Shown here in pieces: positions 38,983-44,387 of a stretch of DNA of 64,000 nt. The stretch is from NCBI RefSeq assembly GCF_013912065.1, contig NZ_JACESA010000014.1:1-64000 (forward strand). The letters run 5' to 3'. This stretch comes from Brevundimonas sp. (GTDB taxonomy: Bacteria > Pseudomonadota > Alphaproteobacteria > Caulobacterales > Caulobacteraceae). How positions within the stretch are numbered: position 1 is the stretch's first letter; every line of letters begins with the position of its first letter. Below the pieces are notes generated by a model. The model was not told the DNA's origin. It ran no database searches and saw only the letters and a list, made by a program, of their open reading frames with translations. A program made the position numbers and the translations under genes.

Positions 38983-40011
38983 TCAGGCCGGTTCTTCGGA
39001 AACGCGAACCAGCAGCTTGCCGTCGTGATCGCCGGTGAACAAGCGGTTCAATGAGTCCACCGCGCCTTCCAGTCCGTCATCGACATGGACCTTCCACTTG
39101 ACCTTGCCTTCGGCGAGCCACGGGCCCATCTCGGCGACCATTTCGCGGGCGCGGTGGGCGTAGTCCAGCACCAGGAAGCCCTGAACGTTAAGGCGATGGG
39201 TGATGAGGCGGGCGAAGTTCGGCGACGGCGGCGCCTTGGTCGCATTATAGGACGACACCAGCCCGCATACGGCCATGCGGCCATGCACCTTCAGACGATT
39301 GAACACGGCGATCATGATGTCGCCGCCGACGTTTTCGAAATTCAGTTCGATCCCGTCCGGCGCCAGTCGATCCAGCGCCGTGCCTACATCCTCGTTCTTG
39401 TAGTCGACAGCCGCGTCGAAGCCGAGTTCATCCGTCAGCCAGGCGCATTTCTCCGGCCCGCCGGCGATGCCGATGACCCGGCAACCGCGCTGTTTGGCGA
39501 TCTGCCCGGCGATGGATCCCACCGCGCCGGCCGCCGCCGAGATCACGAGGGTTTCGCCGGCCTTGGCCTTCAAGACATCGGTTACGCCGAAATAGGCGGT
39601 CAGGCCGGTCATGCCGAGGACCGACATGTTCGCCGTCAGCGGCATTCCCGGCGCGCGGTGCACCGGTCGCAGGCCGGTGTCCGGCACGACCGCATAATCC
39701 GCCCAGCCGCCCGAGGCCGGCATCACCACATCCCCGACCTTGAACCGGTCCGAACGGCTGTGCTCGACGACGCCCAAGGTCAGGCCGCGCATGACCTCGC
39801 CCAGGGCTACGGGCGGCAGATAGCCTTCGGAATCGTTCATCCACGTGCGATTGGTCGGATCCAGCGACAGATAGACGGTGCGGACCAGAACCTCTGAATC
39901 GTTCAGCGCGGGGATCGGGCTCTCCACCAACTCCAAGTCGCCGGGCTGGATCAGCCCCCGTGGTCGTTGGCGCAGCACCCATTGGCGATTGATCTTGCCG
40001 TTCGAAGCCAT
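38983..40011 (-). CDS. NADP-dependent MDR oxidoreductase (CurA/PTGR-like)
   Basis: Zinc-free medium-chain reductase of 342 residues. It has RQRPRGLIQPGDLELVE at the start, YLSLDPTNRTWMND, LGMTGLTAYFGVTDV, the NADPH loop SAAAGAVGSIAGQIAKQ and FENVGGDIM. These are marks of the enone/alkenal double-bond reductase group that detoxifies reactive carbonyls. The ATG at 40009-40011 follows GAGAGA. An EcfG-type promoter further upstream reads in this direction, but a terminator stands between them. Confidence 0.88.
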   Translation of the reverse strand: MASNGKINRQWVLRQRPRGLIQPGDLELVESPIPALNDSEVLVRTVYLSLDPTNRTWMNDSEGYLPPVALGEVMRGLTLGVVEHSRSDRFKVGDVVMPASGGWADYAVVPDTGLRPVHRAPGMPLTANMSVLGMTGLTAYFGVTDVLKAKAGETLVISAAAGAVGSIAGQIAKQRGCRVIGIAGGPEKCAWLTDELGFDAAVDYKNEDVGTALDRLAPDGIELNFENVGGDIMIAVFNRLKVHGRMAVCGLVSSYNATKAPPSPNFARLITHRLNVQGFLVLDYAHRAREMVAEMGPWLAEGKVKWKVHVDDGLEGAVDSLNRLFTGDHDGKLLVRVSEEPA

Positions 40012-40087: not shown

Positions 40088-40202
40088 AAAAAGGGCGACC
40101 CATGGCGGGCCGCCCTGAAAGTGGCATCATCGAGAATGAGGCGCGGAGGCGACAGATTGGCTGTCGCCAATCTCAAGTCGGGGGGCGTCGCCGCCTCCGC
40201 AG
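40088..40202 (-). ncRNA. gsrN: Candidate general-stress small RNA, GsrN-like
   Basis: No gene occupies this interval, but the minus strand has a complete small-transcript layout. An exact EcfG promoter (40209-40233) predicts a start near 40202. Next come an 8-bp outer stem (40193-40200 with 40143-40150), an exposed run of six C (40180-40185 as read on minus), and a perfect 8-bp hairpin AGATTGGC/GCCAATCT (40154-40173). Last is a hairpin with G-rich and C-rich arms (40093-40115) followed by T5. Length is about 115 nt. Caulobacter GsrN is a sigma-T-dependent RNA with a C-rich loop that targets mRNA leaders such as katG, and related copies tend to lie near GSR genes. The identity is inferred; expression is not shown. 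Confidence 0.65.
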
Positions 40203-40208
40203 GCCGAT

Positions 40209-40233
40209 AACGGCACGTGTGAACAGTGGTTCC
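40209..40233 (-). promoter_or_regulatory. EcfG (sigma-T) promoter for the small RNA
   Basis: On the minus strand, GGAAC (40233-40229), 16 bases, then CGTT (40212-40209). Exact match to the alphaproteobacterial GSR sigma consensus. Confidence 0.75.
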
Positions 40234-40293: not shown

Positions 40294-40318
40294 GGAACGT
40301 CGCCTCTCACCCCGCGTT
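40294..40318 (+). promoter_or_regulatory. EcfG promoter for the small membrane protein
   Basis: GGAAC at 40294-40298, 16 bases, CGTT at 40315-40318. Exact match. The next ATG is 38 bp downstream. Confidence 0.78.
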
Positions 40319-40764: not shown

Positions 40765-41559
40765 TTAGGCGGCTTCCTTGTGACGCGAAGGGTGGAAGAA
40801 CAGCGCCTGACTGATCGCCGCCTTCACCGTCTCCGGCTGGAAGGGTTTGGTGATCAGGAAGGTCGGTTCGGGACGTTCGCCGGTCAGCAACCGTTCGGGG
40901 AAGGCGGTGATGAAGATCACCGGCACGTCGATATTCTTCAGGATTTCCTTGACGGCGTCGATCCCCGAAGAGCCGTCGGCCAGCTGGATGTCGGCGAGAA
41001 CAAGGCCCGGCTTGTGACGGGCGACGGCGTCGATGGCCTCCTCGTGCGTGGTGGCGGCGCCGGTCACGCGGTGACCCAGTTCCTTCACCAGGCTCTGGAT
41101 GTCGGCGGAGATGATGGCCTCGTCCTCGATCACCAGGACGTCGGTCGCCAGTTCGGCGTCGATGTCGGACTGGGCGTCCGCGATCAGGCGTTCGACGTCG
41201 CGCGCGTCAGCCGACAGGATCTGGGCCGCTTCCGACGGCGTGAAGCCCTCGAGCGCGGTCAGCAAAAACGCCTGACGGGACCGCGGCGCGATGCGGAGCA
41301 GCCGGCTCGAGGCGTCGCTGCCGCCTTCGGCCTCGCCGCCGTCCTCCAACTGCGCTCCGGTCGAGGACCAGATGGCGTGAAAGACGTGATACAGGGCGAC
41401 GCGAGGCGTCATTTCCGGCGAAAGCTGTTGCTCGCCTGCAGCCAGCGCTTCCAGCGCGACGCGGACATAGTTGTCGCCGGTGGCCTGATCGCCCGTCAGC
41501 GCCCGCGCATAGCGACGGACATAGGGCAGGTGCGGCGCAAGTCTGGCCAATAGGCTCAT
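40765..41559 (-). CDS. phyR: General stress response anti-anti-sigma regulator PhyR
   Basis: When phosphorylated, its sigma-like domain captures NepR and so frees EcfG. It has 264 residues: an N-terminal sigma-like domain (LLARLAPHLPYVRRYARALTG, LEGFTPSEAAQIL) and a C-terminal receiver with VLVIEDEAIISADI, the phosphoacceptor in LVLADIQLADGSSGID and the FITAFPERLL/TKPF switch region. The FATGUY-like TAFPERLL wording is typical. The ATG at 41557-41559 was preferred over the longer frame. It is divergent from nepR and has its own EcfG promoter, giving positive feedback. Confidence 0.95.
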   Translation of the reverse strand: MSLLARLAPHLPYVRRYARALTGDQATGDNYVRVALEALAAGEQQLSPEMTPRVALYHVFHAIWSSTGAQLEDGGEAEGGSDASSRLLRIAPRSRQAFLLTALEGFTPSEAAQILSADARDVERLIADAQSDIDAELATDVLVIEDEAIISADIQSLVKELGHRVTGAATTHEEAIDAVARHKPGLVLADIQLADGSSGIDAVKEILKNIDVPVIFITAFPERLLTGERPEPTFLITKPFQPETVKAAISQALFFHPSRHKEAA

Positions 41560-41622
41560 ATAGGTAGTCCCCGACAAAGTTTGCTGAACCGTCCCTTCGG
41601 ACGCAGCGCTACAGCGGATCGA

Positions 41623-41647
41623 AACGTATGAAATGGATCACGGTTCC
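41623..41647 (-). promoter_or_regulatory. EcfG promoter for phyR
   Basis: Minus strand GGAAC (41647-41643), 16 bases, CGTT (41626-41623). Exact match, about 64 bp before the phyR ATG. Confidence 0.82.
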
Positions 41648-41687: not shown

Positions 41688-41712
41688 GGAACCCAGCGAC
41701 GAGGGCGACGTT
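41688..41712 (+). promoter_or_regulatory. EcfG promoter for nepR-ecfG
   Basis: GGAAC at 41688-41692, 16 bases, CGTT at 41709-41712. Exact match, 48 bp before the nepR ATG; it supports autoregulation of the sigma factor operon. Confidence 0.85.
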
Positions 41713-41760: not shown

Positions 41761-41964
41761 ATGATTGATTCTTCCGATTCCTCGCGGCGCAAGGGCGCCG
41801 ACAAAGCGGGGGAGGCGGGGCTCGAGGAAGCTCGGCTTCGCCAACAGGCTATCGGCGTCAAATTGCGCCATATGTTCGACGAGGTCGTCAACGAACCCGT
41901 GCCAGATGAATTCCTGGACATTCTGAAGCGCGCCGACGCCAAGTCATCGGGTGGTGGCGCATGA
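41761..41964 (+). CDS. nepR: Anti-sigma factor NepR
   Basis: A 67-residue anti-sigma factor that holds EcfG inactive until PhyR-P displaces it. The family core is present: QAIGVKLRHMFDEVVNEPVP then DEFLDILKRAD. The flanking ends are disordered and charged, as usual. I chose the ATG at 41761; a GTG at 41743 is possible. The stop overlaps the ecfG start by four bases (ATGA), so sigma and anti-sigma are made in a coupled ratio. Confidence 0.94.
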   Translation: MIDSSDSSRRKGADKAGEAGLEEARLRQQAIGVKLRHMFDEVVNEPVPDEFLDILKRADAKSSGGGA

Positions 41965-42572
41965 GTTCCCCTCGCCTGGGCGCCGCGCCTAAACCCGCGT
42001 CCGCAGATGACGAGGGCTTCAAGCGCGAACTGGTCCAGCTGATTCCTCATCTGCGCGCCTTCGCGCGAACCTTGACCGGCGATCCGACCGCAGCAGACGA
42101 CCTGGCCCAGGACGCCATGATGAAGGCGTGGGACGCCCGCGCCAGCTATCAGATGGGCACCAACATGAAGGCCTGGACCTTCATGATCCTGCGCAACCAG
42201 TTCTATTCCGAAAAACGCCGGTCCTGGCGCCAGTCGCAACTGGATCAGGAAGCGGCCGAGCGGACCCTGGTGGCGGTCGATGATCCCGAGGCGCCGGTCG
42301 CCCTGGACGAACTGCGTCAAGCGCTGAAGACCCTGCCTGAAGAACAGCGCGAGGCCCTTATCCTCGTCGGCGCGGGCGGTTTCGCCTATGAAGAGGCGGC
42401 CGAAATCTGCGGCTGCGCCGTGGGGACCGTGAAAAGCCGGGTCAGCCGCGCGCGCCGGGCGCTTCAGGCCACGCTCGAAAAGGGCGGTTACGGGCGCGAC
42501 GGCAAGGCCGCCGGCGACGCCATGCGCACCATCCTGGGCGAGGCCGACAGACTGGCCGGCGCCAGGTCCTGA
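41961..42572 (+). CDS. ecfG: ECF sigma factor EcfG (SigT)
   Basis: General stress sigma factor, group ECF15, 203 residues. Region 2 is LIPHLRAFARTLTGDPTAADDLAQDAMMKAWDA and region 4 is LPEEQREALILVGAGGFAYEEAAEICGCAVGTVKSRVSRARRAL (quoted here only as start and end: LPEEQREALILVG ... GTVKSRVSRARRAL). It recognises GGAAC-N16/17-CGTT, which occurs five times around this locus. Starts in the nepR stop and is followed seven bases later by phyK. Confidence 0.94.
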   Translation: MSSPRLGAAPKPASADDEGFKRELVQLIPHLRAFARTLTGDPTAADDLAQDAMMKAWDARASYQMGTNMKAWTFMILRNQFYSEKRRSWRQSQLDQEAAERTLVAVDDPEAPVALDELRQALKTLPEEQREALILVGAGGFAYEEAAEICGCAVGTVKSRVSRARRALQATLEKGGYGRDGKAAGDAMRTILGEADRLAGARS

Positions 42573-42578
42573 GCCTCG

Positions 42579-44387
42579 GTGACGCAGGGGTCCAGATCAG
42601 GCGACGCCGAGACCCGGCCTCGTCTCGGCCGGAAATGGAGCACGGCCCGGTTTCAGGGCATCCGCTTTCGGCTCGGCACGGCCATGGCCCTGGCCCTGCT
42701 GCCCTTCTTCATCCTGATCCTGATCCAGACCCAGGCTGACTTCAGCCGACAGGCGGAGGATCGCAAGATCGATCTGCAACTGGCCGCGGAACGCAGCGCC
42801 GGCGACGCCAAGGCGCGGCTGGACAGCGCCCAGGTGCTGTTGCGGGCCCTCAGTCCAGATGCGCTCGGCCCCTATTGCGCCCCGCGTCTTACGGCCCTGG
42901 TCGATCGGCTGGAGGGCTACGAAGGCCTGTACCGCCTCAGCCCCACCGGCGATGCGGTCTGCTCGTCCGGGCGGCTGGACGGCCTTCGTTCCGGCGTGGC
43001 CCCGGCAGCGCAGGCGGACTGGTTCCAGCGCCTGCGACAAGGCGAGGAAATGGTCGTGGTCCGGGCGCCGGCCGACGCAGGCTATCCGGCGGCCCTGATC
43101 ATCGCCATCCGCGCGGAGCGGCCGATGGGACGGTTCGACGGCGCCATGGCCGCCGTCATTCCCCTGTCCGTCCTTCAGCCCGACATCCGCGATCCCGCCC
43201 TGCCCGCCGCATCCGAGGCCGCCCTGACCGACGGCGCGGGCCGCATACTGATCGCCAGCGATCCCGCAGCCTTCCACCTGTCCGACGGCGGCGACGTGTC
43301 GGGCTGGGTCGCCCGAGCACGTGACAGGGGTTCGGCCGTCTTCGCAGCGACCGACAGTCGTAATCAGCGCCGCGACTACGCCGGCGCCGTGCTCGCGGGC
43401 GGCGATCTCTATGCCCTGTTGTCGGCGCCGGCGCCGGGACTGCTATCGTGGGCGCGGCTGAATCCGATCGGCACCCTGCTGCTGCCGCTGGGCGCCTGGC
43501 TGGCCGCCTTCGCGGCGGTCATGCTGCTGTCGGAACGCATCTTCATCCGCTGGCTCGACTATCTGGAGCGGATCGCGGCCCTCTACGCCAGGGGACGGTT
43601 CTCGGTGCGGCCGTTGCAGGCGATGAACGCTCCGTCCGAGATTCGCACCATGGCCCGGACCCTGGACGAGATGGCCGAGGCCATCACCGTCCGCGACCGC
43701 GAGCTGATGAACTCCATCGCCGAGAAGGACGCGCTGATGCGCGAGATCCATCACCGGGTGAAGAACAATCTGCAGATCATCTCCTCCCTGCTGTCCATGC
43801 AGCAACGGGCCCTGACCGACGCCCCGGCCAAGGCGGCCCTGGGCGACACGCGCCAGAGGATTTCGGCCCTCGCCCTTATCTATCGCACCCTCTACCAGAG
43901 CGAGGATATCCGTCACGCCGACGCACGCGACTTCCTCACCGAACTGGTCGGGCAGCTGATCGCCAGCGAAGCCGGCAGAGGACCGGTCGTGATCAGTTCA
44001 GTGGATGCGGATTCCCTGCTGGTCGATCCCGACAAGCTGGCGCCGCTCGCCCTCTGGCTGGTCGAGGCGGTGACGAACGCTCAGAAGCACGCCTTCGCGG
44101 GGCGGGGCGGGTCGCTGAAGGTCCGCTTCCGGGTTCACGGCGACACTTCGGTGTTGGAGGTCGAAGACGACGGTCCCGGCCTCGCGTCCGGTGCGGAGGC
44201 GGGTGTCGGACGAACCCTGATGGGGGCCTTCGCCAAACAGTTGCGGGGCGAAGCGGAATTCTTCGAGGCGCCGGAAGGCGGAGCTATCGCCCGCATGACC
44301 TTCGCAACGCCTGAAGCGCTTTCGCCCGTGGATCCCGCCGACAAGACGAGCGCGGCCGACGGAACCGGCGCCGTGCGGTCGCGTTGA
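42579..44387 (+). CDS. phyK: Sensor histidine kinase PhyK (HisKA_2 type)
   Basis: Membrane kinase expected to phosphorylate PhyR. It has 602 residues: TM1 (about 31-50), a large periplasmic sensor (about 51-285), TM2 (about 292-315), a HAMP-like linker (IRTMARTLDEMAEAI), a HisKA_2 phosphoacceptor (IHHRVKNNLQIISSLL, His391/392) and an ATPase domain with ALWLVEAVTNAQKHAF and EVEDDGPGL. The start is GTG at 42579. The order phyR / nepR-ecfG-phyK equals that of Caulobacter. The end of this gene carries an EcfG promoter for the next one. Confidence 0.92.
   Translation: MTQGSRSGDAETRPRLGRKWSTARFQGIRFRLGTAMALALLPFFILILIQTQADFSRQAEDRKIDLQLAAERSAGDAKARLDSAQVLLRALSPDALGPYCAPRLTALVDRLEGYEGLYRLSPTGDAVCSSGRLDGLRSGVAPAAQADWFQRLRQGEEMVVVRAPADAGYPAALIIAIRAERPMGRFDGAMAAVIPLSVLQPDIRDPALPAASEAALTDGAGRILIASDPAAFHLSDGGDVSGWVARARDRGSAVFAATDSRNQRRDYAGAVLAGGDLYALLSAPAPGLLSWARLNPIGTLLLPLGAWLAAFAAVMLLSERIFIRWLDYLERIAALYARGRFSVRPLQAMNAPSEIRTMARTLDEMAEAITVRDRELMNSIAEKDALMREIHHRVKNNLQIISSLLSMQQRALTDAPAKAALGDTRQRISALALIYRTLYQSEDIRHADARDFLTELVGQLIASEAGRGPVVISSVDADSLLVDPDKLAPLALWLVEAVTNAQKHAFAGRGGSLKVRFRVHGDTSVLEVEDDGPGLASGAEAGVGRTLMGAFAKQLRGEAEFFEAPEGGAIARMTFATPEALSPVDPADKTSAADGTGAVRSR
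44361..44385 (+). promoter_or_regulatory. EcfG promoter inside the 3' end of phyK
   Basis: GGAAC at 44361-44365, 16 bases, CGTT at 44382-44385; the last T is the first base of the phyK stop codon. Exact consensus, 51 bp before the entericidin-like ATG. Confidence 0.72.

Follow-up and report, generated by a model that had tools for sequence, protein, structure and literature searches.

The minus-strand element at positions 40233–40088 of the window (the whole 64-kb stretch of DNA analysed) is, taken as a whole, best explained as the gsrN gene of this Brevundimonas species, a reading that we hold with high confidence. The earlier note had proposed a GsrN candidate here, and the proposal is borne out by an end-to-end match to the Rfam family RF01529 (CC3552), by the hallmarks of GsrN and by the place of the element beside phyR–nepR–ecfG. 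Family match, promoter, fold, compensated stems, a conserved C-run and synteny with stress genes are all observed, which includes the five features looked for in a GsrN of family RF01529, namely the score, the upstream promoter, the C-rich 5′ loop, compensated stems and proximity to phyR–nepR–ecfG. The RF01529 match is the only Rfam match at gathering score in the window. The expectation that the element would go unseen holds for ORF-based annotation only; the Rfam scan detects it. The parts of the element are as follows.

40209..40233, minus strand: sigma-EcfG (sigma-T type) promoter, exact GGAAC-N16-CGTT by pattern scan, with the −35 GGAAC at 40229–40233, the −10 CGTT at 40209–40212 and a spacer of 16
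40088..40201, minus strand: inferred GsrN transcript of about 114 nt, its start also inferred, from promoter spacing, terminator end and fold (z −5.19)
40093..40198, minus strand: match to Rfam RF01529 (CC3552), model positions 1–106 of 106, 102.7 bits (gathering score 50), E 9.1e-16
40143..40200, minus strand: outer stem of the fold, arms 40190–40200 and 40143–40153
40180..40185, minus strand: exposed C6 run in the loop GCCCCCCGAC (40177–40186), unpaired in the MFE structure, the putative target-pairing loop
40154..40173, minus strand: inner 8-bp hairpin of the fold, AGAUUGGC-GACA-GCCAAUCU
40088..40116, minus strand: intrinsic terminator hairpin and T5, by hairpin scan

The promoter had been described as pointing left into a 345-bp gap; it is exact at 40209–40233 on the minus strand, and 345 bp do separate the start of an oxidoreductase gene (40011) from the next gene (40357). 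The hairpin claimed some 85 nt downstream of the presumed start was likewise located, beginning at that distance from a start near 40201, with 11 pairs in the scan (40092–40116) and leading into T5, whose first T is the last paired base. Five strict sigma-EcfG promoters lie in the 64-kb window, compared to an average of 1.27 in dinucleotide shuffles (n = 100), and one of the five has a terminator-like hairpin less than 150 nt downstream, a combination that occurred in none of 100 dinucleotide shuffles. As sites with at most one mismatch number 19 in the window against 14 expected, the promoter alone is unremarkable; what is striking is the combination of promoter and terminator, together with conservation. 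Such degenerate matches are common in this GC-rich DNA and would favour a chance meeting of promoter and hairpin with no gene behind it, but the family score, the conservation and the compensated stems contradict this, and we give it practically no weight.

The predicted fold has an MFE of −59.6 kcal/mol, compared to −40.4 (sd 3.7) for shuffled sequences (z −5.19), and none of 200 shuffles was as good. Its outer stem has 11 bp and its inner hairpin 8 bp, and the GACGCCCCCCGACUUG loop is left unpaired, in agreement with the stable outer stem, exposed C6 loop and perfect 8-bp hairpin read from the letters before. The earlier note had also suggested looking in relatives for compensatory changes in the stems, and these were found: among 40 aligned sequences, 94.1% of the pair cells are standard and 19/36 pairs show two-sided changes, compared to 7.6 pairs in column shuffles, a control inflated by the relatedness of the sequences, and 3–11 pairs in slid structures, which are the safer control. 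In the same 40 sequences the outer stem is paired in 100% of cells, with two-sided changes in 4/11 pairs; the inner hairpin has them in 6/8 pairs and the terminator helix in 9/10, counted in the register that fits most relatives, from which the stem of the own genome is one pair off. A weak middle hairpin showed compensated pairs in 0/7. The compensated pairs are those of the outer stem, the inner hairpin and the terminator.

At the level of the family, RF01529 was found in 208/299 genomes (201 above the cut-off) and in 17/22 genera. It was found in 32/37 genomes of the genus, whereas the other families of the order, sampled with 24 genomes, gave 0/24; in a set of 81 genus genomes it was present in 68, 64 of them above the cut-off, while 13/81 score as genomes without it. 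Second matches at 35 bits in two genomes (G203 and G135), below the cut-off, are likely due to chance. The proposal was to be given up if close relatives did not share the promoter, the C-run and the terminator, and the unit withstood this check. Of the 53 best-scoring loci, which we read closely (45 from Brevundimonas and 8 from genus g32), 43 carry the exact promoter and 10 carry it with a single mismatch; a run of 6–10 C is present in 53/53, and the promoter ends 10–12 nt before model position 1 with a spacer of variable sequence. A pattern joining the promoter to the 3′ motif TCGATGATG matched 85/131 genus genomes, and its reversed control matched none. Among 80 extracted genus units, 65 carry C6–C10 and 15 fewer, the latter being 12 loop variants and three units with C4–C5 (G022, G598, G600).

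GsrN is known from Caulobacter crescentus, where, according to excerpts of the GsrN paper (PMC5869019), it is ccna_R0081, a free RNA, and both its control by sigma-T and the pairing of its six-C loop with katG are experimental. The same excerpts give as hallmarks a sigma-T/EcfG-type promoter, a length of about 100 nt, a 5′ loop with six C in a row and a place beside phyR–nepR–ecfG, and name Caulobacter, Brevundimonas and Phenylobacterium as genera with BLASTn homologs, which usually adjoin ecfG, nepR and phyR. The element described here shares with GsrN of C. crescentus the promoter type, the length of about 100 nt, the outer stem with a 5′ C-rich loop of six C, the small inner hairpin and the intrinsic terminator; it differs in location, lying beside the stress-response locus, whereas gsrN of C. 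crescentus is distal to it. Rfam CC3552 would be the same RNA as GsrN, as we equate the two by matching features (the loop, the promoter and the fact that the C. vibrioides control genome gives a match). Brevundimonas homologs are already on record in the GsrN paper; the element therefore adds a member to a known sRNA family within a genus already reported, and amounts to a correct, independent rediscovery of a published homolog group. A full-text search of one literature library found no dedicated work on gsrN in Brevundimonas; in term searches, PMC11005374 has a single mention of GsrN and PMC12559287 none. The alphaproteobacterial sRNA BjrC1505 (RF02356) was considered as a distant GsrN and rejected: its full-length match to gsrN here is weak (22.5 bits, cut-off 50), and its own 26 loci (L054–L079) lack both a sigma-EcfG promoter at the corresponding position (2–4 mismatches at best) and any match to phyR, nepR or ecfG within 1.5 kb.

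The neighbourhood is that of the general stress response.

38986..40011, minus strand: downstream oxidoreductase (ADH_N_2) gene, Pfam PF16884 and PF00107
40357..40704, plus strand: predicted membrane protein of 115 aa, assigned to no Pfam family (ORF and Pfam search)
40765..41559, minus strand: phyR, Pfam PhyR_sigma2, PhyR_sigma-like and Response_reg
41761..42572, plus strand: nepR (41761–41964) and ecfG (41961–42572), Pfam NepR and sigma-70 regions 2 and 4

About 0.5 kb lies between gsrN and phyR, with nepR–ecfG beyond phyR, and a HisKA_2 histidine kinase is also among the neighbours by Pfam. The nearest named relatives of the PhyR protein are those of Brevundimonas intermedia, B. mediterranea and B. 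nasdae, which identifies the genus as Brevundimonas. The four other strict sigma-EcfG-type promoters of the window lie at 40294–40318, 41688–41712 and 44361–44385 on the plus strand and at 41623–41647 on the minus strand; the first, divergent from gsrN, precedes the gene of the 115-aa membrane protein, the second nepR–ecfG, the third the region after the histidine kinase and the fourth phyR. The 115-aa protein, whose gene is present in 35/45 genus loci, is possibly a membrane protein of the stress regulon. The place near the stress genes ascribed to GsrN recurs in the genus, with phyR within 1.5 kb of gsrN in 43/45 loci; exceptions to the synteny are genome G292 (locus L053), where the 1.5 kb to either side of gsrN contain no phyR, and B. 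variabilis (L352), where gsrN was not found around phyR.

The oxidoreductase gene lies downstream on the same strand, with the terminator about 76 nt before its start codon, and adjoins gsrN in 44/45 genus loci; one could therefore read the RNA as a leader or attenuator of this gene rather than as a free sRNA. However, the RNA and its promoter are present in 8/8 loci of genus g32, where the gene was found within 1.5 kb in 0/8, a full intrinsic terminator precedes the gene, and the Caulobacter RNA is free, as the excerpts of PMC5869019 state. We consider a leader function very improbable and retain the reading as a free sRNA.

Not all Brevundimonas units carry the canonical loop. Ten loci or units of the 13 RF01529-negative genus genomes were read, leaving out G006 (no PhyR ortholog), G578 and G593. 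In variant A, the promoter, CCUCAUUCUCGAUGAUG and the terminator are kept and the loop is of the UUCCCC type (G007, G030, G181, G244, G281, G308 and G594); G320 also has a UUCCCC-type loop, and near forms occur in G585 (AUCCCCCGGG) and G599 (UGCCCCCGG). In variant B (G023, G162, G253), the promoter and the 3′ part are kept and the 5′ half has no run of at least five C. At the place of gsrN, the loci L193, L194 and L195 keep the promoter and the 3′ part with GAUGAUGCGACU and have no run of at least five C in the 5′ half. Two genomes (G256, G224) keep the C-loop with an altered 3′ part, and no gsrN unit was seen at the locus read in G013. Named loci with the UUCCCC loop are those of B. diminuta 3F5N, B. 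diminuta 470-4, Brevundimonas sp. 357 and B. guildfordensis; these four and L345 fall short of the Rfam cut-off, which the units of B. intermedia, B. mediterranea and B. vesicularis do reach. The full-length match above gathering score in our window thus differs from these five sibling loci of the B. diminuta group. In units of that group a UUCCCC-type loop replaces GCCCCCCGACUU, with promoter, 3′ half and terminator the same; these are the named L346 3722, L356 3772, L348 3712 and L370 3764, and also L187–L189, L191, L192 and L198. The fold z scores of three variant-A units, with flanking DNA included, were −0.84, −1.91 and −4.60, two of the three being weak.

By analogy with Caulobacter and from general knowledge of the PhyR–NepR–EcfG switch, stress would free EcfG, which would drive transcription of gsrN in Brevundimonas. 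Transcription would halt at the terminator to give an RNA of about 114 nt, whose outer stem would present the unpaired CGCCCCCCGACUUG loop. On the same grounds, the C-loop would base-pair with G-rich stretches near mRNA starts and thereby alter translation or stability. Processing as in Caulobacter, where a 51–54 nt 5′ isoform and an effect of Hfq are traits of the family, may also be expected here.

As GsrN activates katG translation in Caulobacter, the same could hold in Brevundimonas, where katG is present in 71/81 genus genomes and is missing in 7/13 RF01529-negative genomes compared to 3/68 of the others (Fisher p 4.7e-5). However, a rescan independent of the start codon, in which 45/46 Brevundimonas loci were read (L099 was not found), detected GUCGGGG in 1/45 katG regions, and there at the outermost limit of the scanned stretch, 292 nt upstream of the DWWP codons. 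The earlier scan of 30 loci had been placed by open frames, which in L082, L092 and L096 begin far upstream. The rescan is able to find the site, as it did so in 4/17 katG regions of two other genera, 105–165 nt before the DWWP codons; these four loci (L173, L174, L177, L178) all belong to g32. In two site-positive g32 genomes (G134, G184), gsrN lies away from phyR, apparently as in C. vibrioides. The predicted duplex of loop and katG in the own genome is no better than shuffles (58/100 at least as strong), and among the 29/30 leaders that were scored (L089 has no recognised start), two ranked at or below 5% of shuffles, as chance allows. The co-loss of katG and gsrN was dropped as evidence because variant A is found in every one of the seven genomes lacking both, and these look like a single clade rather than independent cases. 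The PhyR tree behind this was built from one short protein in 85 rows (G012 was too short to be kept); its bootstrap is unsettled, and 3/10 variant-A rows are unresolved in it. Moreover, two variant-A genomes keep katG. Its absence from 8/10 variant-A genomes may be a single coincidence, since the group looks like one clade. The variant-loop genomes in which katG (TIGR00198) was mostly not found are G007, G030, G181, G244, G281, G308, G594 and G599. The GsrN site of Caulobacter katG was not found near the katG start in Brevundimonas, and katG, set aside as a conserved target because of the 1/45 sites and the shuffle-like duplex, is unlikely to be bound through a Caulobacter-type site in Brevundimonas. 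Activation of its translation as in Caulobacter appears quite improbable.

A G-rich stretch complementary to the loop does occur in the leader of phyR.

41568..41575, minus strand: GUCGGGGA, a complement of the GsrN loop within the leader of the phyR mRNA and a hypothetical candidate target site

The motif GUCGGGG gives 7 bp of complementarity to the loop, and its first G lies 12–18 nt before the start codon in Brevundimonas. Pairing of the C-loop with this ribosome-binding region could repress PhyR translation and damp the stress response, a possibility that we regard as doubtful; it is compatible with the identity of gsrN, for which it would name a target. Among the leaders of 86 genus genomes, 75 have GTCGGGG, five ATCGGGG and six neither, and GUCGGGGA forms an island of conservation within a variable leader. 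When 81 leaders were aligned on CGGGG, so that these five letters match by construction, the preceding base was T in 81/81, the one before it G in 75 and the following one A in 80, with variable flanks. Outside the genus, the motif was found in 3/32 leaders of the family (genera g13, g17 and g19) and in 0/11 leaders of other families. The window holds GTCGGGG 24 times, and only at phyR was it seen before a recognised gene start; among the others, 39738 (minus) is inside the oxidoreductase gene and 8566 (minus) precedes a 271-aa frame. In G005 the loop is changed and the leader along with it (CCCCAACU/AGUUGGGG), and the variant loop of G594 pairs over 9 bp; these look like paired changes, which among 80 genomes is suggestive only.

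Several results speak against such a feedback. A co-variation test of loop and leader was negative, own loops having no advantage over swapped ones: the mean pairing run was 6.79 for own and 6.81 for swapped loops (1255/2000 permutations at least as high), 6.99 and 7.08 in the canonical subset of 68 genomes (1942/2000), and 6.11 and 5.88 in the nine variant-A genomes (252/2000), by a crude score that takes the longest Watson–Crick run anywhere in both stretches. The unit of G320 was missed by the extraction rule and left out, its loop and leader being compared by eye. The motif is kept, as AUCGGGG, in three variant-B genomes without the long C-run, and also in G013, where no sRNA was seen. The phyR leaders of g32 and g16 have GGGAGG-type sites, preceded in g32 by UC or UU, and because 10/10 g32 leaders carry UCGGGAGGGG or UUGGGAGGGG at the place of the motif, the motif may descend from an ordinary ribosome-binding site. 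The loop-complementary GUCGGGG leader of Brevundimonas thus contrasts with the GGGAGGGG-type leader of g32, which we take for Caulobacter. Feedback of GsrN on the stress response was tested in Caulobacter and none was found, according to the excerpts of PMC5869019. The best candidate target seen is phyR, predicted and unproven. The wider proposal that the loop works mainly on the phyR ribosome-binding region, so that GsrN would be a feedback arm with an exchangeable 5′ target-pairing module, we think unlikely; the exchange would show in the UUCCCC-type loop of the B. diminuta group and in a second small clade that has lost the long C-run, both with promoter, 3′ half and terminator unchanged.

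A long perfect complement of the loop gained nothing as a marker of targets. The complement AAGTCGGGGGGCGT occurs in 19/81 genus genomes, once in each, and by position 18/19 matches are gsrN itself; the remaining one (G585) sits in an apparent coding frame. In the own genome, the only perfect CAAGTCGGGGGGCG is gsrN, and with up to two mismatches there were 80 matches, compared to 159 for the reversed control.

Taken alone, gsrN is a known stress sRNA located where one would expect it, and the parts worth following are the phyR site and the loop variants. A phyR feedback arm, if true, would be something that, according to the excerpts of PMC5869019, was tested and not found in Caulobacter. At sequence level, the published katG mechanism seems absent in Brevundimonas although the loop is kept, and other targets therefore probably maintain it. 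The natural loop variants, which the Rfam model misses at its cut-off, could reveal separate roles of the loop and the 3′ half.
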